From positions 1 to 35,389 of the forward strand of contig VBEG01000061.1 in assembly GCA_005882115.1 (NCBI GenBank): a stretch of DNA of 35,389 nt, given 5' to 3'. The position numbers and the translations under genes were made by a program. Below, piece after piece: positions 6,402-35,325 of this stretch; positions within the stretch are counted from its first letter, which is position 1, and each line of letters starts with the position of its first letter. This DNA is from Chloroflexota bacterium (GTDB lineage Bacteria; Chloroflexota; Dormibacteria; Dormibacterales; Dormibacteraceae). The notes below the pieces were generated by a model. The model was not told the DNA's origin and did not search any database. It worked only from the letters and a program-made list of their open reading frames with translations.

Positions 6402-8480
6402 GTGGCCCGAGCACCCGTGAAGAGGCGCGCAGCAGGCGCGTCCGTCAGGCCGGCAGGCAGCCCTTCCGTGGCCCCGGCCACGCCGACCGACGGGCTGAGG
6501 CGGGTCGCCATGGAGGCGGTCACACCGGAGATCGACGGCGGACGGTTCCCGGCCAAACGGGTCGTCGGCGAGACCGTGGTCGTCGAGGGGGATATCTTCA
6601 CCGACGGCCAGGACGCCCTGGCCGCCGTCCTGCGCTATCGGCACGAGGCCGCGACGCGATGGATCGAGACGCCGATGGCTCCCCTGGTCAACGACCGCTG
6701 GCGCGGTGAGTTCCCGGTCACCGAGCTCGGTCGCTACGTCTTCACGATCGAGGCCTGGGTGGACCACTTCGAGACCTGGAGCCGCCAGCTCGCCAAGCGC
6801 CTGGCGGCGGGTCAGGATGTACGCCTCGAGCTCGAGGTCGGCGCTCGCATGATCGAGGAGACGGCGGCACGCGCGGACGGGACGACCGCCGACTCGGCGC
6901 GACTGCGGGAGCTCGCCAAGTCGCTGCGCATTCCAAACCCCCACCCGGCGGCTTCGCCGCCGACCTCCCCGGCGAGCGGGGAGGTGAACGGGGAGCTGAC
7001 CACGCTTATGCGGCGCTACGCCGACCGCGCCCAGGCGACGACCTACGCGCGCGAGGTCGAGGTGTTCGTGGAACCTCAGAAAGCGCGCTTCAGCACCTGG
7101 TATGAGCTGTTCCCGCGCTCCACGGGCCCCGCAGGAAAGCACGGCACATTCAAGGATGTCGAGCGCCTGCTGCCGGAGATCGGGCGGATGGGCTTCGACG
7201 TCCTCTACCTGCCCCCCATCCACCCCATCGGCCGCACCCATCGCAAGGGCGCCAACAACAAGTCCGCACAGCCCGGCGAGCCGGGAAGCCCGTGGGCGAT
7301 CGGATCCGAGGAGGGCGGCCACAAGGCGGTGAACCCAGAGCTCGGCACCCTCGCCGACTTCCGCCGCCTGGTCAAGACCGCCGCGGGCGAGGGCATCGAC
7401 GTGGCGCTCGACATCGCGTTTCAGTGCTCACCCGATCACCCCTACACGCGCGAGCATCCCGAGTGGTTCAAGCACCGGCCCGACGGCTCGATCCAGTACG
7501 CGGAAAACCCGCCGAAGAAGTACGAGGACATCTACCCGTTCGACTTCGAGACCGAGCACTGGCGAGGGCTCTGGCAGGAGCTTCTGTCGATCGTCCTCTA
7601 CTGGGCCGAGCAAGGGGTCAGCGTGTTCAGGGTCGACAACCCGCACACCAAACCCTTCGCGTTCTGGGAGTGGCTGATCGCCGAGCTGCGGCGTGCGCAC
7701 CCCGAGGCGATCCTGCTTTCCGAGGCGTTCACGCGACCGAAGGTCATGTACCGGCTCGCCAAGGTGGGGTTCAGCCAGTCGTACACGTACTTCGCGTGGC
7801 GCAACACCGCGTACGAGCTGTACCAGTACTTCACCGAACTGTCCCAGCCGCCAATCCGCGACTTCTTCCGGCCGAACCTCTGGCCCAACACCCCCGACAT
7901 CCTCACCGAGTACCTGCAGACCGGCGGCCGGCCCGCGTTCCAGGCCCGGCTGATCCTGGCTGCCACGCTCGGCGCGAGCTACGGAATCTACGGCCCGCCC
8001 TTCGAAGCGCTGGAGGGCCGTCCGCGCGAACATGGCTCCGAGGAGTACGTGGATTCGGAGAAGTACCAGCTGCGAAACTGGAAGCGCGACCCGAGCATGA
8101 GTGAGCTCGTGGGGATCGTCAACCACATCCGGCGCGAGAATCCGGCGCTCCAGAGCGACCGCGGCCTGCGATTTCACTTCACCGAGAACGAGCAGCTCCT
8201 GGCCTACTCGAAGAGCACGCCCGACAATGCGAATGTGATCCTGACCGTCGTCAACGTGGACCCCCACCACGTGCAGCGCGGGATGGTCAACCTTCCGCTC
8301 GAGGAGCTCGGGATCGAGATTGACCGGTCCTATCAGGCGCATGAGCTCATCAGTGGAGCCCGCTACCTGTGGAACGGACCGCGCAACTTCGTCGAGGTCA
8401 ATCCGCAGTCGATGCCGGGCCAGATCTTTCGTTTCCGCCGTCGCGTGCGCAGCGAGCACGATTTCGAGTACTTCTTGTGA
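6402..8480 (+). CDS. glgE: Alpha-1,4-glucan:maltose-1-phosphate maltosyltransferase
   Basis: GlgE (GH13_3) transfers maltosyl units from alpha-maltose 1-phosphate to the non-reducing end of an alpha-1,4-glucan, releasing phosphate. The N-terminal domain starts at EAVTPEIDGGRFPAKRVVGE (about 38-57). The (beta/alpha)8 domain begins at WYELFPRS and contains YLPPIHPIGRTHRKG. The nucleophile Asp412 lies in FRVDNPHTKPF and the acid/base Glu441 in LLSEAFTRP; their 29-residue spacing equals D394/E423 of the Streptomyces enzyme. Residues 181-197 are a Pro/Ala/Ser-rich insert encoded by a palindromic repeat. I give the GTG at 6402 (692 aa); the ATG at 6510 (656 aa) is a strong alternative because it begins at the conserved domain and leaves room for a divergent promoter. 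The stop codon overlaps the next start (GTGA), which implies coupling with treS-mak. Confidence 0.96.
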   Translation: MARAPVKRRAAGASVRPAGSPSVAPATPTDGLRRVAMEAVTPEIDGGRFPAKRVVGETVVVEGDIFTDGQDALAAVLRYRHEAATRWIETPMAPLVNDRWRGEFPVTELGRYVFTIEAWVDHFETWSRQLAKRLAAGQDVRLELEVGARMIEETAARADGTTADSARLRELAKSLRIPNPHPAASPPTSPASGEVNGELTTLMRRYADRAQATTYAREVEVFVEPQKARFSTWYELFPRSTGPAGKHGTFKDVERLLPEIGRMGFDVLYLPPIHPIGRTHRKGANNKSAQPGEPGSPWAIGSEEGGHKAVNPELGTLADFRRLVKTAAGEGIDVALDIAFQCSPDHPYTREHPEWFKHRPDGSIQYAENPPKKYEDIYPFDFETEHWRGLWQELLSIVLYWAEQGVSVFRVDNPHTKPFAFWEWLIAELRRAHPEAILLSEAFTRPKVMYRLAKVGFSQSYTYFAWRNTAYELYQYFTELSQPPIRDFFRPNLWPNTPDILTEYLQTGGRPAFQARLILAATLGASYGIYGPPFEALEGRPREHGSEEYVDSEKYQLRNWKRDPSMSELVGIVNHIRRENPALQSDRGLRFHFTENEQLLAYSKSTPDNANVILTVVNVDPHHVQRGMVNLPLEELGIEIDRSYQAHELISGARYLWNGPRNFVEVNPQSMPGQIFRFRRRVRSEHDFEYFL
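6938..6994. repeat. Palindromic GC-rich repeat inserted in frame inside glgE
   Basis: Two adjacent perfect hairpins are present: CGGCGGC/GCCGCCG (6946-6952 and 6956-6962, 3-nt loop) and ACCTCCCC/GGGGAGGT (6963-6970 and 6978-6985, 7-nt loop). They are preceded by CCCCCACC. The region encodes GlgE residues 181-197, a Pro/Ala/Ser stretch in a linker of the N-terminal part. The same order of parts occurs in reverse orientation at 30730-30810, so this looks like a dispersed REP-like element that has become part of a protein. Confidence 0.6.
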
Positions 8481-11400
8481 TCACCACGCCCCAGCGCGCC
8501 AAGCGCAGGATCGAGACGTCGCAGCTCGAGGAGGATCCGCTCTGGTACAAGGACGCGCTCATCTACGAGCTCCACGTGCGGGCGTTCTACGACAGCGACG
8601 CCGACGGCGGCGGTGACTTTCGCGGCCTGGTCGAGAAGCTGCCCTACCTGCAGGAGCTCGGCATCAACGCGCTCTGGCTGCTGCCGTTCTATCCCTCGCC
8701 TCTACGCGACGACGGCTACGACATAGCCGATTACACCAACGTGAATCCGATGTACGGCACGCTGGGCGATGCCAACCAGTTGGTAAGAGAAGCGCACCGG
8801 CGCGGCATCCGGGTGATCAACGAGCTCGTGTGCAACCACACCTCGGACCAGCACCCCTGGTTTCAGCGCGCGCGGAGGGCGAAGCCGGGAACCGCCGCAC
8901 GTGACTTCTACGTGTGGAGCGAGACCAACCAGAAGTACCAGGACGTGCGGATCATCTTCAAGGACTTCGAGACGTCCAACTGGACCTGGGACCACGTCGC
9001 GAACGCCTACTACTGGCACCGTTTCTACTCGAGCCAGCCCGACCTCAACTTCGACAACCCCAAGGTCAAGGAGGCGATCTTCAAAGCCCTCGACTTCTGG
9101 ATGGACATCGGGGTCGACGGCGTCAGGCTCGACGCCGTGCCCTACCTGTTCGAGCGCGAGGGCACCAACGGCGAAAACCTGCCCGAGACGCATCAGTTCC
9201 TGCGCGAGCTGCGCCGCCATGTCGACAGCAACTACCGGAACCGCATGCTGCTTGCCGAGGCCAACCAGTGGCCCGAAGATTCGGTCGCCTATTTTGGACA
9301 GGGCGACGAGTGCCACATGTCGTTCCACTTCCCGCTAATGCCACGGCTCTTCATGGCGATCCGCATGGAGGACAGGTTCCCGATCGTCGACATCCTGGCC
9401 CAGACCCCCGCCATTCCCGACACCTCGCAGTGGGCGCTCTTCCTGCGCAACCACGACGAGCTCACGCTCGAGATGGTCACCGACGAGGAGCGCGACTATA
9501 TGTATCGCGCTTACACGCAGGACCGCCTCGCCCGCCTGAACCTCGGCATCCGGCGCAGGCTCGCACCCCTGCTCGGCAACGACCGCCGGCGCATCGAGCT
9601 GATGAACGGGCTCCTTTTCTCGCTGCCCGGCACCCCGGTCCTCTATTACGGGGACGAGATCGGCATGGGGGACAACATCTTTCTGGGCGACCGCAACGGC
9701 GTGCGCACTCCGATGCAATGGAGCGCCGACCGGAACGCCGGCTTCTCTCGCGCCAACCGCCAGCGCCTGTACCTGCCGGTCATCACCGACCCTGAGTACC
9801 ACTACGAGACCGTCAACGTCGAGGCCCAGCAGGGCAACCCGCACTCGATCTTCTCGTGGACGAAACGGCTGATCGCGCTGCGCAAGCGCCACCGCGCGTT
9901 CGGACGCGGCACACTCGAGCTGCTGCGGCCGGAAAACAGAAAGGTGCTTGCGTACGTCCGCAGCTACGAGTCAGAGCAGATCCTCTGCGTCGCCAACCTG
10001 TCGCGCTTCCTGCAGGCGCTCGAGCTGGACCTGACCAAGTGGAAGGGCCTCGTTCCCGTAGAGCTCTTCAGCAGCAACGAGATGCCGGTGATCGGCGACA
10101 ACCCGTACTTCCTGACCCTCGGCCCGCACGCCTTCTACTGGTTTGCCATGCAGCCGCGCGCGGCGGCGAGCATACAGAGCGACGGCGCCCAGGCGGCCGC
10201 CGTGCTGCCCGAGGTGCGTCTTGCCGGCGGTTGGGAGTCGGCCCTGGCCGGAGGCGCGAAGGAGCGGTTCGAGAGCGTGCTCGTCCGCTACATCCCGCAG
10301 CGGCGCTGGTTCGCGGGCAAGGCCCGGCGCGTGAAGACCGCGACGATCAGCGACGTCATCACCGTGCCCGGAGCGGAGAACTACGCGTACCTGACCTCGG
10401 TCGTGATCGGCTACGCGGACGGCGACCCCGACACCTACATGCTGCCCATCGCTTACGCCAATCCCGCCGAGGCGTCTCACATCATCGAGCGCTGGCCACA
10501 TGCGGCGATCGCGTGGGCCCGCAACCCAGGTGAGGAAGCGCGCGGATTGCTCTACGACGCCCTTGGACCGGCCAACTTCGCCGAGGCGATGCTCGGATCG
10601 ATCGCGCGCCACAAGCGTGCCGCCGGCGGCGCGGGGACACTGGTTGGCTCGACAACACGCGCGTTTGCGCGCCTGCGCGGGCCCGAGACGGTGCGCCTCG
10701 AGGCGCAGCTCTCGATCGCCGAGCAGAGCAACAACTCGGTGATCTTCGGCGAGCGCCTGATGCTGAAGGTCTTCCGCCGGCTTGAAGAGGGGGTGAACCC
10801 GGAGCTCGAGGTCGGGCGTTTCCTGACCGAAAAGACCAACTTCAGCCAGATCGCGCCGCTTGCAGGCACGCTCGAGTACCGCCGCCCGACGGGCGAACCG
10901 GTCAGCATCGCGATCCTCCAGGGCTACGTGCCGAACCAGGGCGACGCCTGGCAGCACACGCTGAACACGGTCGCGCACTACTTCAACGCGCCCGAGCTGG
11001 TGGGCATGCAGCCGCCCACGTTGCCCCGAAGCCTGCTCGAGGCAAGCCGGCTGGAGCCCTCCGAGCTGGCCGTGAAAGCGATCGGCGGCTACCTGGACTC
11101 GGCGCGTCTGCTCGGCCGCCGCACCGCCGAGCTGCACGCCGCGCTGTCCTCGGACCCGACCGATCCGGGGTTCGCGCCCGAGCGGATCTCGCCCCTCGAC
11201 CAGCGCTCGATCTACCAGTCGATCAGCGGTCTGTCAATGCGGGCTATCGACCTCCTCCGGACGCAGGTGAACAAGCTGCCGGCCGACGCGAAAGAGGAAG
11301 CGCGGAAGGTGCTGGAGCTCGACTCCCGGATTGCCTACTTGCTGAAAGCCTTCCTGGCCCGCCGCCTGAACACGACTCGCATCCGCGTGCACGGCGACTA

Positions 11401-11829
11401 TCACCTCGGCCAGGTGCTCTACACCGGGCACGATTTCGTGATCATCGATTTCGAGGGCGAGCCGACCAGGTCCCTGTACGAGAGGCGGCTCAAGCGCCTG
11501 GCCATGCGCGACGTGGCCGGGATGCTCCGGTCGTTTTCCTACGCAAGCCAGGCGGCGCTTCGCTCGCAAGAGATCGCCCCGGAGAGATTGCCCGAGCTGC
11601 ATGCATGGGCGCGCTTCTGGGTCGATTCGGTGTCCGCCGTATTCTTGAGGAGCTACCTGACGACCGCGGGCAACGCGTCGTGGGTATCGCAGAACCAGGA
11701 CGACCTCGAGCTCCAGCTCAACACCATGCTTTTGGAGAAGGCCCTGTACGAGCTTCGCTACGAGCTGAACCTGAGACCTGACTGGGTGCGCATCCCTCTG
11801 CGGGGCATCCTCGATCTTGTGACGCCTCC

Positions 11830-11833
<4 letters not shown>
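8477..11833 (+). CDS. treS: Trehalose synthase - maltokinase fusion (TreS-Mak)
   Basis: This 1118-residue protein has two enzymes. Residues 1 to about 560 are a GH13 trehalose synthase that interconverts trehalose and maltose: nucleophile Asp219 in GVRLDAVPYL, acid/base Glu261 in LLAEANQWPED, transition-state stabiliser Asp327 in FLRNHDELTLE. Residues from about 610 to the end are a maltokinase of the Mak/Pep2 type, beginning near VRYIPQRRWFAGKAR, with catalytic-loop Asp974 in RVHGDYHLGQV and Mg-binding Asp991 in IIDFEGEP. The kinase makes alpha-maltose 1-phosphate from maltose and ATP, the substrate of the neighbouring GlgE. I start at the GTG at 8477, which overlaps the glgE stop as GTGA; a longer frame from 8369 would run far into glgE. 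The fusion is known in many actinobacteria and other bacteria. Confidence 0.95.
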
Positions 11834-13752
<1,919 letters not shown>

Positions 13753-24448: not shown

Positions 24449-25495
24449 GTGACGGCGCTGCGACTGATGCAAGTTGGCCTCGGAGGTCACGGCCGCAACT
24501 GGGCCAGGCGCATCGTCCCAGACGTCGACGAGGTCGAGCTTGTCGCGTACGTCGACTCCGATCCGTACACGCTGGACATCGCCCGCGAAGAGCTGCGCGC
24601 GCCCGCCGGCATGTACTTCGAATCGATCAGGGAGGCGATCACGGCCACCCGGCCGGAAGCGGTCCTCAACACCACCGCGCTGGCGGGTCATGCGCCCGTG
24701 ACGCGCGCGGCCCTCGACGCCGGACTGCACGTCCTGGTCGAGAAGCCGTTCGCGGCGACCCTCGGCGCTGCGCACCAGCTGGTCGACGTCGCCGCCAAAG
24801 CCGGCCTCGTCCTGATGGTCAGCCAGAACTACCGCTACTTCCCCGCACCGAGGGCCATCGCCGAATTCGTCCGGGCGGCGCCCCTGGGCAAGCTGCACGA
24901 GGTCTCGATCGACTTCCGCCGTTACTCGATGGCCGGGCCGTCGGGACGCGGCCGTCACCACCTCGAGGAGCAGCCTCTGTTGGTCGACATGTCGATCCAC
25001 CACTTCGACCTCCTTCGCCTGATCCTCGGCTCCGAGCCGGAGCGCATCTACTGCGAAGCGTGGAATCCGAGCTGGACGGACTTCAGCGGCCCGTCTGTCA
25101 CGGTCGCCTCGATCCTGTTTCCGGGCGTCGTGGTCAGCTACCGCGCCAGCTGGGTCACCGCCGGACATCTGACTCCATGGGCCGGCGAGTGGCACCTCGA
25201 GTTCGAGCGCGGCGAGGTCGTCTGGGCGAGCCGCGACGATGACATGAACGAGGACCGCGTGATGATCCGTCCGCGCGGCGGCAGGTCGCGAACCGCGACG
25301 CTGCGCCCGATGGCGAGGACAGGTCCGGCTGGGACTCTGACCGAGTTTGCGCATGCGGTGCAGTCGGGCTGCGAGCCGGAGACCTCAGGCCGTGACAACC
25401 TGGGCACGGTCGCGTTCGTCGCGGCCGCGGTCGAGTCCGCGTCTGTCCACGAGCCTGTATCGATCTACCGGACCGGCGAAGCGCTTCCCATCTGA
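24449..25495 (+). CDS. Gfo/Idh/MocA-family oxidoreductase (first copy)
   Basis: This is a 348-residue NAD(P)-dependent sugar dehydrogenase. The Rossmann motif VGLGGHG lies at about 9-15, EKP at 98-100 with Lys99 the usual catalytic lysine, and the substrate-site block [18 protein letters not shown] (177-194) supplies Asp180, His184/185 and Asp187. The family oxidises or reduces hydroxyls of pyranosides and inositols. I chose GTG 24449 because the first beta-strand ([10 protein letters not shown]) starts before the alternative ATG at 24467 and because CATCAT lies 8 nt upstream, consistent with a leaderless start. The stop overlaps the next ATG by 1 nt (TGATG). The partner genes suggest a role in making 3-keto glycosides, as proposed for ThuB. 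Confidence 0.88.
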
Positions 25496-26250: not shown

Positions 26251-27416
26251 GGTCGTTCGCCGAAATCGGGGCGGCTGTGGTGGGGACCGGGTTTATCGGC
26301 GCCGTCCACGTCGAAGCGTTGCGCCGTCTGGGCGTGCAGGTGCATGGCGTGGTCGGATCCACGCGCGAGCGGGCCGCCGCGAGGGCGGTGGAGATTGGCC
26401 TGCCCCAGGCCTATGGCAGCTTCCAGGCGATGCTCGACGACCCGCGCGTCGATGTCGTGCACGTCACCTCGCCCAATCATTTGCACCACGAGCACTCGAG
26501 GGCCGCCCTTCGCGCCGGCAAGCATGTCGTGTGCGAGAAGCCGCTCGCCATGACGCCGGCCGAGTCAGCCGACCTGCTCCAGATCGCCGAGCACAGTGGG
26601 CTGGTGCACGCGACCAACTTCAACCTGCGCTTCTACCCGGTCGTCCAGCACGTGCATGGCATGGTCCGCGAGGGCGCGCTGGGCGAGGTGCGACTGGTGT
26701 CCGGCCATTACCTGCAGGACTGGCTGCTGCTCGACACCGACTGGAACTGGCGGCTCGAGCCCGAACTGGGCGGCGTCCTCCGCGCCGTGTCCGATATCGG
26801 TTCGCACTGGATGGACCTGACCACGTTCCTGACGGGCAAGCGGATCGTCGCCGTGATGGCGGACCTCGCGACGTTCATCAAGAAGCGACGGCAGCCGTCG
26901 GGCCCCATGGAGACGTTCGCCACCGGCCGCGGAGTGAAGACCGTGGAGCGCGATATCTCGACCGAGGACTGCGCGACGATCCTGCTTCGCTACGAGGACG
27001 GCACGCGCGGCGCCGTGACGGTCTCTCAGATCAGCGCCGGCCGCAAGAACTCGCTGCTGTTCGAGGTCGACGGCTCGACCTCCGCCGTAGGCTGGAACTC
27101 GGAACGGCCCGACGAGCTCTGGATCGGGCATCGCGGGCGCCCCAACGAGCTCCTGCTGCGCGACCCCGCGATCCTCAACGAAGAGGGGCGTCGCGCCGCG
27201 AGCCTTCCCGGTGGCCACGCCGAGGGATTCGCCGACACCTTTCGCGCGCTGTACGCCGCGGTGTATCGAGCCGTAAGCGCAGGCAAGCCGTCGGAGGGCT
27301 ACCCCACCTTTGCCGACGGCCACGACGAGATGCTCGTCTGCGACGCGGTGGCACGCAGCCATCGCGAGCAGAGGTGGGTCGAGGTCGAGCGCGCCGTGAG
27401 GTCGGCGGCCAGGTGA
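26247..27416 (+). CDS. Gfo/Idh/MocA-family oxidoreductase (second copy)
   Basis: This is a 389-residue dehydrogenase with VVGTGFIG (11-18), CEKPLA (Glu97-Lys98-Pro99) and the substrate-site block [18 protein letters not shown], in which Asp183, His187 and Asp190 are the usual contacts. It differs clearly from the first copy in length and C-terminal half ([51 protein letters not shown]), so the two are not a recent duplication and probably use different substrates or work in opposite directions. The GTG at 26247 overlaps the thuA stop, and its own stop overlaps the next GTG, both as GTGA. The last motif type is common in ThuB-like and 1,5-anhydrosugar or 3-keto-glycoside dehydrogenases. Confidence 0.9.
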
Positions 27417-28343: not shown

Positions 28344-29475
28344 TACGTCGTGCCGCGACGAAGAACGTGATCGACATACCGATCGCGACCACGGCCAGCA
28401 CCGCCGGCGCCCAGCTCACTCCGGCCTGCGCGATCACGATCCCGATCGCACCCGGGCCGGCGATGCCGCCGATCGACGCCGCGGGAAAAAGCCACGACGT
28501 CGCCCGCGAATCGCCAGGGCGCAGCTTTGCCAGCCAAACGATGCCGGTCGGAAAGATGGGGGCGAGCGCGAGACCCGTCACTAGGTAGGCCCACGGCGCC
28601 AGGATGCCGGCGGTCGCGGCGAGCAGCCCGACCGCGGCCATGCCCGCACCGGTGAGCACGATCGTGCCCTCGGGGACAGAACGTGGAACAAGCGTGATGA
28701 GCAGGCGGCCTGTGACCAGGGCCAGCCAGAAGCCTGATGTCACGGTCGCGGCCTGGGTCGAACGAAGGCCGACCGACTCGAGGTGTGAGGTCATCCAGCC
28801 TCCGGTGCCGTTCTCGATCGCGACGTAGAGCACGAAAGCGAGGATGAAAATCCACACAAGGCTACCCGGGCGCACGCGCGAGCCGGCGGAGACCGGAAGG
28901 CGGCCCGTGATGCCAATCGCGGCTGGAATCAACGCGAGCCACACCGCGGCGAAGACCAGGTAGAGCGGCGAAAAGTGCTCGCCGGCGAACGTGGCGACGA
29001 GGATTGGGCCGCCGACCGCACCGGCCGAATACGCGCCGTTCAACGCGTTGAGAAGCGCCGTTCGCCGCCTGCTCTCGCTGTAAGCGACGAGCTGGTTCAA
29101 CCCAAGGACGAGGGCGCCGAAGCCGAGGCCGACGATGAAGACTCCAAGCAGGAATGCCGGCCAGACGAAAGCGATCGCGATGATCACCAGCCCAAAGCCC
29201 ACGGTGGCCGTGGCGATCATCACGGTGACGCGGCCGGGAAGCCTTTCGAACGAACGCATCGCGATGAAGACCCCAGGCAGGGAGCCGGCGAAATGCACAC
29301 TGATCGTCGCGCCCGCAACGGGGAGGCTCACGCCGAACCGGCGGATGAGGTGCTCGAGGAGCGGGCCGTAGCCGGCGACGATCATCCCCATCAGCAAGAA
29401 CGTCGTCGCGATGCCGGCGATCGACGCCCGGGAAAGGACGACTCGAGTGGTTGGGACCTCAGTGATCGGATGCAA
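28330..29475 (-). CDS. MFS transporter
   Basis: This is a 381-residue integral membrane protein with about 12 hydrophobic segments in two halves. The segments include IATTFLLMGMIVAGYGPLLE, VIIAIAFVWPAFLLGVFIVG, LVWIFILAFVLYVAIENGTG and MAAVGLLAATAGILAPWAYL. ENGTGGWMTSHLESVG after helix 7 and IFPTGIVWLAKLRPGDSR are typical of sugar-transporting MFS proteins related to the FucP and Tsg groups. It probably imports a mono- or disaccharide by proton symport; the substrate is unknown. The proposed start is TTG at 29475; no ATG or GTG fits upstream of helix 1. The gene diverges from the GH1 gene, suggesting import of the sugar that the beta-glycosidase acts on. Confidence 0.85.
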   Translation of the reverse strand: MHPITEVPTTRVVLSRASIAGIATTFLLMGMIVAGYGPLLEHLIRRFGVSLPVAGATISVHFAGSLPGVFIAMRSFERLPGRVTVMIATATVGFGLVIIAIAFVWPAFLLGVFIVGLGFGALVLGLNQLVAYSESRRRTALLNALNGAYSAGAVGGPILVATFAGEHFSPLYLVFAAVWLALIPAAIGITGRLPVSAGSRVRPGSLVWIFILAFVLYVAIENGTGGWMTSHLESVGLRSTQAATVTSGFWLALVTGRLLITLVPRSVPEGTIVLTGAGMAAVGLLAATAGILAPWAYLVTGLALAPIFPTGIVWLAKLRPGDSRATSWLFPAASIGGIAGPGAIGIVIAQAGVSWAPAVLAVVAIGMSITFFVAARRTAAQ

Positions 29476-29508
29476 TGCGGCCGGCCGATTGTCGGCGAAA
29501 GGAGGACT

Positions 29509-29514
29509 TAGACT
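29509..29514 (+). promoter_or_regulatory. Candidate -10 element of a leaderless GH1 promoter
   Basis: TAGACT (29509-29514) lies exactly 7 nt before the ATG at 29522. Transcription would begin at the start codon. The AGGAGG at 29500-29505 is 16 nt from the ATG, too far for a normal Shine-Dalgarno site. No clear -35 is visible. Confidence 0.35.
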
Positions 29515-29521
29515 CCGCCAG

Positions 29522-30826
29522 ATGACTGACTCCCCGCGGTTTCCTGACAGCTTTCTCTTCGGCGCTGCGATCTCCGCCTACCAGACGGAGGGCGGCAACG
29601 TGAACACCGATTGGTGGTGGTGGGAGCACATCGAGTCCACACCATGCCAGGAGCCGTCCGGCGACGCATGCGATTTCTACCACCGCTACGCCGACGACGT
29701 TGCGATGCTCGCGAGCTCCGGGCTCAACTGCTTCCGCTTCGGCATCGAGTGGGCGCGCATCGAGCCGGCTGAGGGCGAGTTCTCCCGTGCGGAGCTAGCC
29801 CACTACCGCCGCATGCTCGACACCTGCGACGAGCATGGAGTGGCCCCGATCGTCACCTTCCACCACTTCACGGTCCCGAGATGGCTGCACGAGCAGGGAG
29901 GGATCGCCTCGGAGAAGTTCCCTGCCCTGTTCGAGCGCTACTGCGATCGCGCGGCGCAGGCGCTCGGCGACCGGATCGCCTACGCCTGCACGATCAACGA
30001 GCCGCAAGGCTTAGGTTCGAGCGGATGGCTGCTCGGGGTCAACCCGCCCGGGCACACCGACGACCGCGATGGCGCCCAGCGCGCGGTTGACAACCTGCTC
30101 GAGGCGCACCGGCGCGGCGCCGCCGCGATCCGCTCCCACGCGGGCGTTCCGGCCGGCGTGACACTCGCCATCCCCGACATCCAGTACGAGGATGGCGCCC
30201 AGCCGGGTTCGAGCTCGCTCGAGCTGGAATCCCGCATCAACGACTGGTTCTTGCAGCTGGCGAGTCAGGATGACTTCATCGGGGTTCAGACTTACACGCG
30301 ATTCCGATACGGGCCGGAAGGTGCGCGCAGCCCCGGCCACGACTGGAGCGACACCACGCGCGAGCTGGCGGAAACCGACCAGACAACGCAGATGGGCTAT
30401 GAGTACTACCCGCGGGCGCTGGGCGGCGCGATCCGCCGCGCTCAGCGCGCCTGCCCCGGCGTACCCATCCTGGTCACCGAGAACGGGATCGCCACCGGCA
30501 ACGACGACAAGCGGATCGCGTACATCGACTCCGCGATGCGAGAGGTCCTCGCATGCCTTGCCGAAGGGATCGACGTCCGCTCCTACATCTACTGGTCGCT
30601 GCTGGACAACTTTGAGTGGGCGCTGGGCTACGCGCCGAAGTTCGGCCTGGTGGCCGTGGACCGGCAGACATTCGCGCGGCACCCGAGGCCAAGCCTGGCG
30701 TGGCTGGGCCAGGTCGCACGAGCCAAACTCCTCCCCACTCGTGGGGAGGTGGAACTCTCCCCCGTTCATGGGGAAGTACCCGGCGTAGCCGGGGGCCGGG
30801 GCAGCGCCGGTGGGGCATCCGTGTGA
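29522..30826 (+). CDS. GH1 family beta-glycosidase
   Basis: This is a 434-residue retaining beta-glucosidase-type enzyme. It begins FPDSFLFGAAISAYQTEGG, the usual start of GH1. Acid/base Glu160 is in CTINEPQ and nucleophile Glu320 in ILVTENGIA; SYIYWSLLDNFEWALGY and KFGLVAVDR complete the active-site framework. The core ends about residue 402. The following 32 residues (starting LLPTRGEVE, ending SAGGASV) have no counterpart in the family and are encoded by a palindromic repeat, which seems to have replaced the original stop. No signal peptide is present, so it acts on imported beta-glucosides in the cytoplasm. It diverges from the MFS gene and lies 13 nt upstream of the GAF-dehydrogenase gene, so the two are probably co-transcribed. 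Confidence 0.93.
   Translation: MTDSPRFPDSFLFGAAISAYQTEGGNVNTDWWWWEHIESTPCQEPSGDACDFYHRYADDVAMLASSGLNCFRFGIEWARIEPAEGEFSRAELAHYRRMLDTCDEHGVAPIVTFHHFTVPRWLHEQGGIASEKFPALFERYCDRAAQALGDRIAYACTINEPQGLGSSGWLLGVNPPGHTDDRDGAQRAVDNLLEAHRRGAAAIRSHAGVPAGVTLAIPDIQYEDGAQPGSSSLELESRINDWFLQLASQDDFIGVQTYTRFRYGPEGARSPGHDWSDTTRELAETDQTTQMGYEYYPRALGGAIRRAQRACPGVPILVTENGIATGNDDKRIAYIDSAMREVLACLAEGIDVRSYIYWSLLDNFEWALGYAPKFGLVAVDRQTFARHPRPSLAWLGQVARAKLLPTRGEVELSPVHGEVPGVAGGRGSAGGASV
30730..30810. repeat. Palindromic GC-rich repeat forming the 3' end of the GH1 gene
   Basis: The parts are a perfect 9-bp hairpin CCTCCCCAC/GTGGGGAGG (30730-30738 and 30741-30749), a weaker CCCC/GGGG hairpin (about 30757-30774), the perfect hairpin CCCGGC/GCCGGG (30779-30784 and 30788-30793), and a GC-rich end GGTGGGGC. 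Read on the minus strand the order is CCCCACCGG, GC hairpin, TCCCC hairpins, the same as the element inside glgE. It encodes the last ~30 residues of the GH1 protein and ends shortly before the next gene. Confidence 0.6.
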
Positions 30827-30839
30827 TGATCGCCCTGCA

Positions 30840-33800
30840 TTGATCCGCCCGCCGGTCGAAGCCAACTCCGGTCTGGCCGCGGTCCTCCGCGGTGTGATCG
30901 CCGACTTCCAGCACGCCTCGGGGGCGGAGATCGTGTCCGTCTTCCTTTATGACGAGTCGACCCACACCTACTACGCCCCGTTCGCGACCGGCCAGCCACA
31001 GGAGAGCCTGCTCGACTCGCTGACCGACATGCGCGAGCAGCTGGCCCGATACCTGAACGACGAGAGGCAGGGCAAGGCGCCTGACGAGCTGGGGGTCCAC
31101 CAGTACGGCTCGACGGTCTGGCTGACCGTCACCCGGCAGCGGCTCGTGGCCCGAGACGCGCCGGCGGAGATCGATTCGACGTTCATCCGCCGTTACCAGG
31201 TGCAGTCGACGATCGGGCTGCCCCTGCTTGCCGGCGAGAGGTTCCTCGGCCTGGTCTACCTGAACTACCGAAGCAAGGAGCGCGCGCCGGACGACAACAA
31301 GCTGCGCGAGCTCGAGCGCCGGGCCGGGACCGCGGCGGCGCTCATCCAGAGCGCGCTCGAGGGCGCCGAGCGCACGGCGCTCGAGGGCTTGTCGCGCCTT
31401 ACGTCGCTCCTCACGACGCCGGTCGGCGACGCCCGCACCGACGCCAAGGAGCTGCGTCGACTGCTGTCGATTGCGCTCGCCGACCTGCTGATGGCGAGCA
31501 ACCTCGACGGCGCTGCGATCTACCAGTTCGGCCACCAGCGCTCGCACCTCGAGCTGGTCACCGCGCACCTCCGGGTGGCTGCACCGGCGCGCGTCGAGCG
31601 GGGCGACCCATCGACCGCGTGGGAGGCAGCCCTCAGCAAGACAGTCGGCGAGACCACGGCCGAATCCGACCTACATCCCGTCGCCACGTACGCGCTCGGC
31701 CAGCCCGACGAGCCTCACGGCTACCTGATCGTCGTGAGCCGCGACAGTCTTGCCACCGTCAGGCGCGCGCATGCCACCGACGAGATGCTCAAGGCGGGAG
31801 CCCAGCTGATCGGAAGCGCGCTCGCGTCACAGCGCTTGATCGCCGAGCTGGAGAACAGCAACAGGCTGCTCAGCGCGCTGGGCGACATGACGGCCGCGAT
31901 GCTGAAGCCTGGCGCGAGCCGCCACGAGGTCATCGACGCGGTGGTCGGCCACCTCACCGATTCCGAAGTCCCGGAGTTCGACTTCAACTTCGCCACCGTC
32001 TATCTGCTCGACCAACGGGAGGACGACGCCACCGTGGTGCGCATGGCGGCCGGCGCCGCCACCGCGGCGTCGATCGAGGGAACAGCACCCCACGCCGGCA
32101 AGAAAGTCCCGCGATGGGCTCTGGAGGAGGACCGCCTGCTCGCCGAGAGCGACGTCCTCGTCTACGTAGCGCGCACCTGGCAGACCGTCATCGTCGGGCC
32201 GCTGCCCGCGGGCGATCACGGGGACGTGATCTCGGGCGGCGTGCCCGTGCAGTCGACCTGGACTGAGGTGCCGGTCGTCTACACGAACGGCATGGTGCTG
32301 GGCAACGTGCTCGCGTCCCTGATCGGCGAGAAAGAGCGCGCCCGAGGCGAGGAGCCGGCGCCATTCACGCTCGCGGGCGAGGTCTTCGATCGAGGCGGGC
32401 ACAAGGACCTCATCCGCGTCTTCGTGCCATTCGGGAGCGACGCCACGGGGCGGGCGACGGGCGTGCTCGAGGTCGGTTATCACCGTTCGGACCAGCGCCG
32501 CCCGGACTGGGGCCAGGTCGAAGCACTCCGCGCGGCCGCCGGACAGCTCGCGGTCGCCGTCGAGACGGCGCGCCTGTATGAAGATGCGCAGCGCCACGCC
32601 GAGCAGCTCGAGCTCGTCGCCGACGTCAGCAAGGCGATCGCCAGCTCGATCGACCTCGAGCAAACGCTGACGCTCGTCGCCCAGAACCTGGCCCGTCTGG
32701 TCGACGCCTCGCTGTGCCAGATCGCGCTCTATGAAGAGGACCACGAAGGCTGGTACGGCGCCGCAGCCTCGGACCTCCAGGACCTCTGGCACCGGGAGCA
32801 TGCGGAACGGTCGGAAACGACATTCCTGTTCGATGTGCTGGACCGCGAGCAGCCGATCGTGGTCGACGACACGTCCACCAGCTCGCAGGTCGATCCCAAC
32901 TACGTGCGCACGTTTGGCGTGAAGTCGCTGATGGCGCTCCCCCTCATCGCCGACGAGCAGGCGATCGGCGCGGCGATCCTGGCGGAACGCACCCGCCATC
33001 GCCGCTTCACGCCTGAAGAGGTGCAGCGCGCGCAGGCGCTGGCGGTGCAGGCGGCTGTGGCGATCAAGAACGCGCGGTTGCACGCGCTGGCCGAAGAGGA
33101 GCGACACCTGCAGAAGGACTTCGTCCTGATCGGCTTCGGCCAGTGGGGCCAGAAGGCGTACCAGCACCTGCTCACGCTCAAGCAGTTCTTCAACTTCCGC
33201 ACACACGTGGTCGAGCAGGACTCGCCCGGATCGCGCGACCGCCTCGGCGTGAAAGAGGAGGAGGTGCGCACCCACGGCGACACGTTCTACTGGGACAGCC
33301 ACGGCTCCCCCGCGCGCGACCAGCTGGAGCGCGAGCTGGAGTCGAGCTCGTACGTGATCACTTACATCGCCACGCCGGCGGCCACTCACCTGCCGACGCT
33401 GGCGCGCTACTACGACCTGAGCGACGTGGTCCTGATCGAGAAGCCACTCGGCGCACCGCCGGACGACTACCGCAAGTTTCTGGACACGGCGCCAGGAGGC
33501 GTCGAGATCGTGGCCGCCGACCATTACTACTTCAAGCTCGAGGTTCGGCTGCTCGCGATGCTGCTCACCGAGGAGCGCACGCTGCGGAACTTCCTCGACA
33601 GCGTCGAGGAGATACGGATCGAGATCCTCGAGGAACAGCCGCTGACCGGCGCCGCGGCGGACATCGGCGTCATCGCCGACCTGATCCCCCACGCCTTCGC
33701 GATCATCTCGCTGCTGACGCCGATCGACCGGATCAAGCTCGACGCGACAGCTCCCCTCCTCATCGGCCGCCACGAAGGCCTGGCTGGGCAACGCGAGAGC

Positions 33801-34238
33801 TACGCGCGCATGAACGCCACCTTCGAATATCACGGCCGGTCGGTGCGGCTTGTCGCCGACGTCGGCAAGGGTGCGGAGAACGCGAAATGGATCAAGCTCA
33901 GCGGCGAGAAGCGCGCGGCCGGACGCAGCCCCAGCTACAAGTTCGACTTCGGCAAGGGGGAGGCCATCGACGGCACGCAGGCGACCGTGCGCGCCGCCGT
34001 GCGGAGGATCCGCGAGCCTGGAGTGCCCGACAACGCGCACCTCAACATGCTTCGTCACGTCATCGAGAAGCGCCACCCCGCGGTCGGCATCCTGTCGATC
34101 CGCGAGGCGATTCGCGCCAACCAGCGGGTGCGCGAGCTCGAGGCGATGGCTTCTGAGCTGCTGGCGCGCAAGGAGTGGACGGACTACCCGCTGGGCAGCC
34201 GGCCGGTGTTCGAATCCGCCGGGGTGCGCGTCAGCTGA
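30840..34238 (+). CDS. Four-GAF sensor fused to a Gfo/Idh- and G6PDH-like dehydrogenase
   Basis: This is a 1132-residue cytoplasmic protein. Four GAF-like modules are recognisable at about 1-180 (IGLPLLAGERFLGLVYLNYR), 185-340, 345-580 (with a long insertion) and 590-750 (SLMALPLIADEQAIGAAILA, then RRFTPEEVQRAQALAVQAAV), joined by helical linkers. From residue 760 a dehydrogenase follows: LIGFGQWG (Rossmann GxGxxG, 763-770), a strand with ATPAATHLPTLA, IEKPLG (866-871), ADHYYFK (Asp894, His895) and IADLIPHAF (Asp947, His951). These three resemble EKPxG, IDHYLGK and RDMVQNH of glucose-6-phosphate dehydrogenase. No kinase, cyclase or DNA-binding output domain is present. A ligand bound by the GAF part may control oxidation of a sugar or sugar phosphate (inference). 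The start is TTG 30840; GTG 30810 inside the repeat is less likely. Its 3' end overlaps the convergent GT4 gene by 8 nt. Confidence 0.8.
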   Translation: MIRPPVEANSGLAAVLRGVIADFQHASGAEIVSVFLYDESTHTYYAPFATGQPQESLLDSLTDMREQLARYLNDERQGKAPDELGVHQYGSTVWLTVTRQRLVARDAPAEIDSTFIRRYQVQSTIGLPLLAGERFLGLVYLNYRSKERAPDDNKLRELERRAGTAAALIQSALEGAERTALEGLSRLTSLLTTPVGDARTDAKELRRLLSIALADLLMASNLDGAAIYQFGHQRSHLELVTAHLRVAAPARVERGDPSTAWEAALSKTVGETTAESDLHPVATYALGQPDEPHGYLIVVSRDSLATVRRAHATDEMLKAGAQLIGSALASQRLIAELENSNRLLSALGDMTAAMLKPGASRHEVIDAVVGHLTDSEVPEFDFNFATVYLLDQREDDATVVRMAAGAATAASIEGTAPHAGKKVPRWALEEDRLLAESDVLVYVARTWQTVIVGPLPAGDHGDVISGGVPVQSTWTEVPVVYTNGMVLGNVLASLIGEKERARGEEPAPFTLAGEVFDRGGHKDLIRVFVPFGSDATGRATGVLEVGYHRSDQRRPDWGQVEALRAAAGQLAVAVETARLYEDAQRHAEQLELVADVSKAIASSIDLEQTLTLVAQNLARLVDASLCQIALYEEDHEGWYGAAASDLQDLWHREHAERSETTFLFDVLDREQPIVVDDTSTSSQVDPNYVRTFGVKSLMALPLIADEQAIGAAILAERTRHRRFTPEEVQRAQALAVQAAVAIKNARLHALAEEERHLQKDFVLIGFGQWGQKAYQHLLTLKQFFNFRTHVVEQDSPGSRDRLGVKEEEVRTHGDTFYWDSHGSPARDQLERELESSSYVITYIATPAATHLPTLARYYDLSDVVLIEKPLGAPPDDYRKFLDTAPGGVEIVAADHYYFKLEVRLLAMLLTEERTLRNFLDSVEEIRIEILEEQPLTGAAADIGVIADLIPHAFAIISLLTPIDRIKLDATAPLLIGRHEGLAGQRESYARMNATFEYHGRSVRLVADVGKGAENAKWIKLSGEKRAAGRSPSYKFDFGKGEAIDGTQATVRAAVRRIREPGVPDNAHLNMLRHVIEKRHPAVGILSIREAIRANQRVRELEAMASELLARKEWTDYPLGSRPVFESAGVRVS

Positions 34239-35325
34239 GCGGCTGCTCGCTGTACCGCGACTGCTCGATCGCGCGCTCGTAGATGCTCTCGTAGCCGTCC
34301 GCCATCCTGGCCGGACCGAATCGCTTGGCCGCCACCTCGGCGCAGCGCGCGAGGTCGATCTCCTTCAAGCGCTCGTATGCGGCCACCATCTCGTCGGCGT
34401 CCCGGGCCAGGAAGCCCGTGACTCCAGGTTCCACGATCTCCGGCGCGGCGCCACGCGGAGACGCGATCACAGGTGTGCCGCTCACCATCGCCTCCACCAT
34501 CGCCATGCCGAACGGCTCCTCCCACTGGATCGGAAACAGCAACGCTTTGGCATGAGCCAGCAGCTTGGCCTTCTCCTGGCCTTGCACGTTCTCGCGCCAC
34601 GTGACCTGGCGGTTGAGATTCGGCTTGATCTTCTCCTCGAAGTAGCGCTGTGCCGTTGCGTCGACCTTGCCGGCGAGCACGAGCGGCACGTTCAGGCGCT
34701 TGGCCACCTCGATCGCGACATGCTGGCCTTTGTCCGGGTTGATGCGCGCCAGTGAGACGAGGTAGTTCTCTTTTTCTTCTGGTTTGGTGACCGGTGAGTA
34801 CTCCGCGGGATCGATGGCGTTGTGCACGACACCGCGCCACTCGACACCAGCGACCATCGCCTGTTGGGCGCGGCTGATCGCAACGAGATGCACCTGCCGA
34901 GCAACCGTCCGCAAGAAGTCGCCCTCGGATTCCCTTAGCGCGCCATGCAGGGTCGCGACGACGGGTGCCTGCAGTCGTGCCTGCGCGGCGACCAGGATGC
35001 CCGTCAGGCCGGAGTTGTCGTGGATGATGTCGAACGCGCGCCTGCGGACAGTCTCGTACGCCCGGTAGAGGAACAGGTTTTGACGCGGCAGCTCATCGAG
35101 CGTGCCCAGCTGCGACGTCCAGCTCTCCGGCGCGAGAGCGAGCGATTCGAACGGTCCCCGTGATCCTTGCCCACCGAGGATCGTGACCTGGTGGCCGCGA
35201 TTCGCCAGCTCGCGCCCGAGGTTGTAGGCCATGAGCTCGATCCCGCCGTAACCGCTGGGAGGAACTGGGTACCAGGGGCTGACGATGATGGCGATCCGGC
35301 GACGCTCCACATGGATATAGAACAC
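34231..35325 (-). CDS. GT4 family glycosyltransferase
   Basis: This 364-residue GT-B enzyme transfers a sugar from a nucleotide donor with retention. The N-terminal acceptor domain starts RRIAIIVSPWYPVPPSGYGG and IELMAYNLGRELANRGHQV; the C-terminal donor domain has LVSLARINPDKGQHVAIEVA and the EX7E-type block EEPFGMAMVEAM, followed by GTPVIASPRGAAPEIVEPG. Acceptor and product cannot be told; it is not a close match to glycogen synthase GlgA or to the maltose-1-phosphate synthase GlgM. I report the GTG at 35325; the GTG at 35310 (MERRRIAIIV) is equally possible and lies just after a TATATC. It converges on the GAF-dehydrogenase gene with an 8-nt overlap. Confidence 0.88.
   Translation of the reverse strand: MFYIHVERRRIAIIVSPWYPVPPSGYGGIELMAYNLGRELANRGHQVTILGGQGSRGPFESLALAPESWTSQLGTLDELPRQNLFLYRAYETVRRRAFDIIHDNSGLTGILVAAQARLQAPVVATLHGALRESEGDFLRTVARQVHLVAISRAQQAMVAGVEWRGVVHNAIDPAEYSPVTKPEEKENYLVSLARINPDKGQHVAIEVAKRLNVPLVLAGKVDATAQRYFEEKIKPNLNRQVTWRENVQGQEKAKLLAHAKALLFPIQWEEPFGMAMVEAMVSGTPVIASPRGAAPEIVEPGVTGFLARDADEMVAAYERLKEIDLARCAEVAAKRFGPARMADGYESIYERAIEQSRYSEQPLS

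Follow-up and report, generated by a model that had tools for sequence, protein, structure and literature searches.

A conserved fusion of a GAF array with an oxidoreductase domain placed between G6PDH and Gfo/Idh in Chloroflexota: a candidate sensor-gated sugar dehydrogenase

Descriptions of GAF arrays almost always place them upstream of kinases, cyclases, phosphodiesterases or sigma-54 activators. The DNA analyzed here, referred to as the window, is the entire contig C140 (35,389 nucleotides) of a Dormibacteria genome of 3.36 Mb in 147 contigs. In a first-pass annotation, made from the sequence alone, one of its genes had been read as a single protein of 1132 residues, starting at position 30840, in which four GAF modules precede a sugar dehydrogenase with active-site motifs resembling those of G6PDH. 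The locus raises two questions: whether the fusion is genuine, and what a GAF array may do in front of a metabolic enzyme. The features involved are the following.

29411..30826, + strand: GH1-type glycosidase immediately upstream of the fused gene, named from its sequence and from the first-pass annotation
30840..34238, + strand: complete fused gene of 1132 codons and a stop codon, beginning with TTG; open frame, start position common to relatives
30864..31415, + strand: module 1 (residues ~9-192), a GAF domain whose C-terminal helix is long; Pfam PF01590, hhalign, model
31416..31901, + strand: module 2 (residues ~193-354), probably a degenerate GAF; predicted helix-strand order only
31902..32642, + strand: module 3, GAF/PHY-like with insertions (residues ~355-601), ending in the long helix 557-601; superposition
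32643..33074, + strand: module 4, GAF domain (residues 602-745), carrying the sole cysteine, C626; Pfam, superposition
33069..33119, + strand: coupling helix NARLHALAEEERHLQKD, from GAF4 to the first Rossmann strand; spacer of constant length
33108..34238, + strand: NAD(P)-dependent oxidoreductase domain of the G6PDH/Gfo-Idh superfamily (residues ~757-1132); profile, motif and model comparisons
34231..35325, - strand: putative GT4-like glycosyltransferase, convergent neighbour; family name inferred from sequence

The reading frame is uninterrupted over positions 30810-34238 (+ strand). The codon aligned with TTG 30840 is ATG, GTG or TTG in relatives, and in several of them it immediately follows a stop codon; TTG 30840 was therefore accepted as the start, in agreement with the first reading. 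Promoter and terminator signals were sought, and none exceeded chance. The 1132-residue protein is intact in the Dormibacteria genome, and the frame extends over more than 1100 residues in the relatives, save at contig ends or MAG frameshifts. Frame breaks were found in the loci L060 and L061, at residues ~633-664 and ~1056-1069, away from the junction. According to the first-pass annotation, its reading would fall if a sequencing error near base 33100 had fused two separate genes. Such an origin, or a fault of assembly, has practically no probability left, because dozens of independent MAGs, belonging to several groups and lineages, share the same fusion with a junction of identical length.

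Searching for other carriers, as had been suggested at first reading, revealed the fusion elsewhere in the class and in distant Chloroflexota. Within the class, 33 of 110 genomes carry the fused gene, every one of them from the family to which the window belongs. Matches to the C-terminal domain were identified in 31 of 61 near relatives (including some weak matches to ordinary Gfo/Idh proteins), in 28 of 400 genomes of the phylum (25 of full-length type) and at 36 public loci. Relatives are Dormibacterota, frequently deposited as 'Chloroflexi' soil MAGs; distant carriers include two loci titled Thermomicrobiales (67-69% identity) and further Chloroflexota at 64-67% identity. The C-terminal domain was never seen as a stand-alone protein in the 110 class genomes, the 400 phylum genomes or plasmids. 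The scan of the genome collection relied on short exact peptides and could have missed distant stand-alone relatives outside Chloroflexota. Weak matches in other genomes, considered as stand-alone homologues, were rejected as ordinary Gfo/Idh proteins. A record named 'Acidobacteria bacterium AA35' (L045) holds a fused gene at 86% identity, and is probably a mislabelled Dormibacteria bin.

Profile searches and structure prediction, proposed in the first-pass annotation for each half of the protein, recovered GAF domains in the N-terminal half and a G6PDH/Gfo-Idh fold in the C-terminal half, as its domain reading implied. Modules 1 and 4 are certainly GAF domains. Module 1 matches PF01590 at 27.7 bits (cut-off 22.4) within the first 170 residues; module 4 also passes the PF01590 cut-off, with a Pfam GAF match at residues 605-742 (9e-24), and the two modules match each other with 96% probability in hhalign. 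GAF matches were obtained by Pfam in 20/20 family members. The full-length AlphaFold2 model (pLDDT 76.5, pTM 0.42) features four alpha/beta modules, with long helices at residues 152-192, 311-354, 557-601 and 725-752 between them. Module 3 (residues 355-601) has no Pfam match, but is assigned to the GAF fold by superposition of the model: modules 3 and 4 together (residues 341-757) superpose on the tandem GAF of PDE5A (Z 21.2, rmsd 5.4 Å, 329 residues) and likewise on the GAF-PHY regions of both Cph1 and Cph2. Module 2 (residues 193-354) matches neither Pfam families nor, in hhalign, the other modules, and is a probable degenerate GAF on account of GAF-like secondary structure in the predicted model. 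Of the four GAF modules first annotated three are thus recovered, two by Pfam and one by superposition, the remaining one being only probable. Module 4 is closest to the GAFs of DevS, the nearest by sequence, and PtsP (Z 18). A haem-GAF of the DevS type was rejected, as residues 602-745 contain no conserved histidine. No conserved motif was recognized in the array as a known GAF ligand signature, and inspection of module 4 by eye revealed no NKFDE motif of the cNMP-binding GAFs.

The C-terminal domain combines traits of two families, G6PDH and Gfo/Idh, which have a common fold and little common sequence. At ~375 residues it is shorter than Zwf G6PDHs (~490-540 residues) and of Gfo/Idh-like length, as noticed at first reading; its NAD-binding motif is likewise Gfo/Idh-like. 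No match to the G6PDH models PF02781/PF00479 was found at E<=1, whereas PF02781 picked up the true G6PDH of the genome at 1.7e-125. Scores against PF01408 (Gfo/Idh/MocA) were 20.6 and 19.1 bits, below the gathering cut-off of 24; 17 of 20 relatives yielded a Gfo/Idh match in Pfam at E<=0.01. Profile-profile comparison scored best with Gfo/Idh (97%, 1e-10), G6PDH reaching 75% (2.5e-5) by pairing IEKPLG with VEKPFG, ADHYYFK with RIDHYLGK, and GVIADLIPHAF with GALRDIVQNHA. All four motifs listed in the first-pass annotation (GFGQWG, IEKPLG, ADHYYFK, IADLIPHAF) are present and conserved. Its comparison with G6PDH holds for EKPLG and DHYxxK, which also follow the G6PDH motif order, but not for IADLIPHAF, which has the D-x3-H spacing of Gfo/Idh instead of the D-x4-H of G6PDH. 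In a motif count, EKP[LF]G and DHYxxK occurred together in 27/27 relatives and 25/25 G6PDHs, and in none of 21 Gfo/Idh proteins sampled, which are of ordinary length and devoid of GAF arrays. Conversely, GA[TS]GDL and RDxxQNH, typical of G6PDH, are each found in 0/27 relatives; GFGQWG and D-x3-H take their place, so that the GxGxxG, the EKP lysine and the D-x3-H pair of Gfo/Idh are all carried by the domain.

Structural comparison leans towards G6PDH. The C-terminal domain was modelled with moderate confidence (pLDDT 69, falling over the final 65 residues). In VIA-align, its best 46 matches are without exception G6PDH or H6PD (Z 17.3-19.9, rmsd ~4.6 Å, ~340/365 residues; 337/365 aligned with Zwf at Z up to 19.9), G6PDH chains coming first at Z 17.4-19.9, and the best Gfo/Idh ranks at Z 17.0, a small margin at the lower end for a model of moderate confidence. 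Gal80 is among the fold matches. Since motifs, profiles and fold draw on both families, the domain is placed between them: it belongs to the G6PDH/Gfo-Idh superfamily, but is a member of neither family.

Both halves of the protein, and every module, evolve under purifying selection, with dN/dS values of 0.05-0.10 in the dehydrogenase and 0.09-0.32 in the GAFs. Across the deepest split, represented by the family f17, identity is 24-35% in modules 1 and 2, ~50% in GAF4 and 63-68% in the dehydrogenase. Invariant columns in the latter number 103 of 361, and 15 motif residues are never substituted in the 37 sequences; K868, D894, H895, Y896, K899, D947, H951 and K1010 are among them. In G6PDH, the histidine, tyrosine and lysine of DHYxxK touch the sugar phosphate, and the histidine of QNH is the base. 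By analogy, the corresponding residues point to an active enzyme which would use a phosphorylated sugar, and the presence of DHYxxK makes a phosphorylated hexose (glucose-6-phosphate or similar) the most likely substrate.

All 37 sequences place GxGxW of the first Rossmann strand at the same distance, 26 residues, from the NAR motif at the end of GAF4; module 3, by comparison, varies from 226 to 298 residues in the aligned segment. A fixed helical spacer leading into the catalytic domain is the usual way in which GAF and PAS sensors drive their outputs. Long helices and GAF modules N-terminal to a catalytic domain are likewise found in PDE2A, PDE5A, the CyaB2 cyclase and PtsP, but these have a nucleotide-signalling enzyme or a phosphotransferase as output, not an oxidoreductase. 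The outputs listed in a survey of signalling helices are kinases, cyclases, phosphodiesterases and AAA+ proteins, and neither 'dehydrogenase' nor 'metabolic' appears in its text (PMC1592074). A parallel in concept is the cyanobacterial OpcA-G6PDH system, in which a disulfide-using sensor gates a sugar-phosphate dehydrogenase in glycogen catabolism (PMC13071761). OpcA, however, is a separate and unrelated protein relying on disulfides, whereas here the sensor modules are covalently attached GAFs and the protein has one cysteine, the conserved C626 of GAF4. An OpcA-like intramolecular thiol-disulfide switch was rejected for this reason, and the redox signal envisaged at first reading is, in its thiol-disulfide form within one chain, impossible. 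No precedent was found in the literature on GAF combined with G6PDH, Gfo/Idh, dehydrogenase or Rossmann.

Genes flanking the fusion have a common theme, sugar metabolism, but no constant partner, and neighbours shift between lineages. The GH1 gene of the window lies directly upstream, as first annotated; of the 27 loci whose upstream sequence is long enough, 14 have a GH1 gene no more than three genes upstream, in close relatives only, the linkage being absent in distant ones. In close relatives the fusion resides in a glycan-use island, comprising GH1, a sugar ABC transporter, a LacI regulator, debranching-type glycosidases and the GT4-like glycosyltransferase; two debranching-type genes and a lactate permease were checked by Pfam among the conserved neighbours, the other names coming from reading of the sequences. 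A glucoamylase-like gene lies downstream of the fusion at two other loci. The distant f17 lineage has one locus, L150:4782-9430 (- strand), where the fused gene is directly followed by a same-strand transaldolase gene, a single-case hint of a link to the pentose-phosphate pathway, and another with a GH130 neighbour. Canonical G6PDH was detected in 27/27 genomes tested, 24 carriers of the fusion among them. The idea that the fused protein substitutes for a missing G6PDH was therefore rejected, and a second glucose-6-phosphate oxidase needs a reason.

We consider it reasonably likely that the protein is a sensor-gated metabolic enzyme, an active NAD(P)-dependent sugar or sugar-phosphate dehydrogenase under GAF control. 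Three to four GAF-type modules, linked by long helices and probably dimeric, would bind at least one small ligand from the cytosol; the fixed-length helix after GAF4 would pass the resulting change in conformation on to the first Rossmann strand, raising or lowering activity. The putative active site would include K868, D894, H895, D947 and H951, and the enzyme would work alongside ordinary G6PDH, oxidising glucose or glycans in a branch subject to regulation. The proposal is supported by the persistence of the fused architecture across deep divergence; ligand-gated catalysis is plausible in view of the invariant spacer, the invariant catalytic residues and the absence of stand-alone copies.

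Other readings share part of this evidence. GAF arrays are usually part of signalling proteins, Gfo/Idh-fold pseudo-enzymes exist, as the match to Gal80 recalls, and carriers already possess a canonical G6PDH; the C-terminal domain could accordingly be a catalytically silent sensor of NAD(P)H or sugar, and the whole protein a multi-input sensor or scaffold acting via a partner. We regard this as unlikely, as a pseudo-enzyme has no need of the K868, D894, H895, K899, D947 and H951 residues kept in all 37 sequences, and no output or partner gene is consistently linked. Similarly improbable is a structural or oligomerising role of the GAF modules, which would bind no ligand and be attached to a constitutive enzyme. 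The rapid divergence of modules 1 and 2 in f17 and the failure to recognize a ligand motif would fit, but selection on all modules, the fixed length of the coupling helix and the good conservation of GAF4 over the deepest split argue against it.

The nature of the substrate is a closer matter. It is quite conceivable, though we lean against it, that neighbouring glycosidases release an unphosphorylated sugar or glycoside, on which the dehydrogenase acts by Gfo/Idh-type chemistry, the DHYxxK likeness to G6PDH being incidental. Profile similarity, GxGxxG and the D-x3-H spacing are all on the Gfo/Idh side, and GH1, GH2-like, glucoamylase-like and GH130 genes are neighbours in several lineages. 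Against it stand the joint occurrence of EKPLG and DHYxxK, constant in G6PDHs and missing from the Gfo/Idh sample, the fold match favouring G6PDH, and the changing gene context.

Under the preferred reading of a GAF-controlled dehydrogenase, sensing and flux control would share one polypeptide, and the conserved output of the array would be central-metabolism chemistry; oxidative sugar metabolism could be controlled by a small-molecule signal through one protein. The domain architecture is conserved and apparently hitherto undescribed. Chances are about even that it defines a new class of allosteric enzymes, a compact oxidoreductase family between G6PDH and Gfo/Idh switched by covalent GAF sensors; its C-terminal domain bridges the two families. 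As the lineage is uncultured, an expressible protein with an NAD(P)H read-out would be a rare route to the signal governing sugar oxidation in these soil bacteria.

Additional features were noted in the window and in related genomes. Genes for GlgE, a TreS-maltokinase fusion and GlgB lie in a row at 6402-13752 (+ strand) and make up an alpha-glucan pathway of the GlgE type, starting from trehalose. Two further genes, at 24473-24823 and 26268-26612 (+ strand), encode ordinary Gfo/Idh oxidoreductases. In the 3' tail of the GH1 gene lies a dispersed repeat of ~60-80 bases (30735-30815, + strand) with 28 matches in the genome and no unusual RNA fold (z 0.14); comparable repeat-coded peptides precede the fused gene in L034, L042 and L066. 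Genome G029, of the same family as the window, has six canonical G6PDH matches of two score sizes, suggesting an expansion of G6PDH paralogues.
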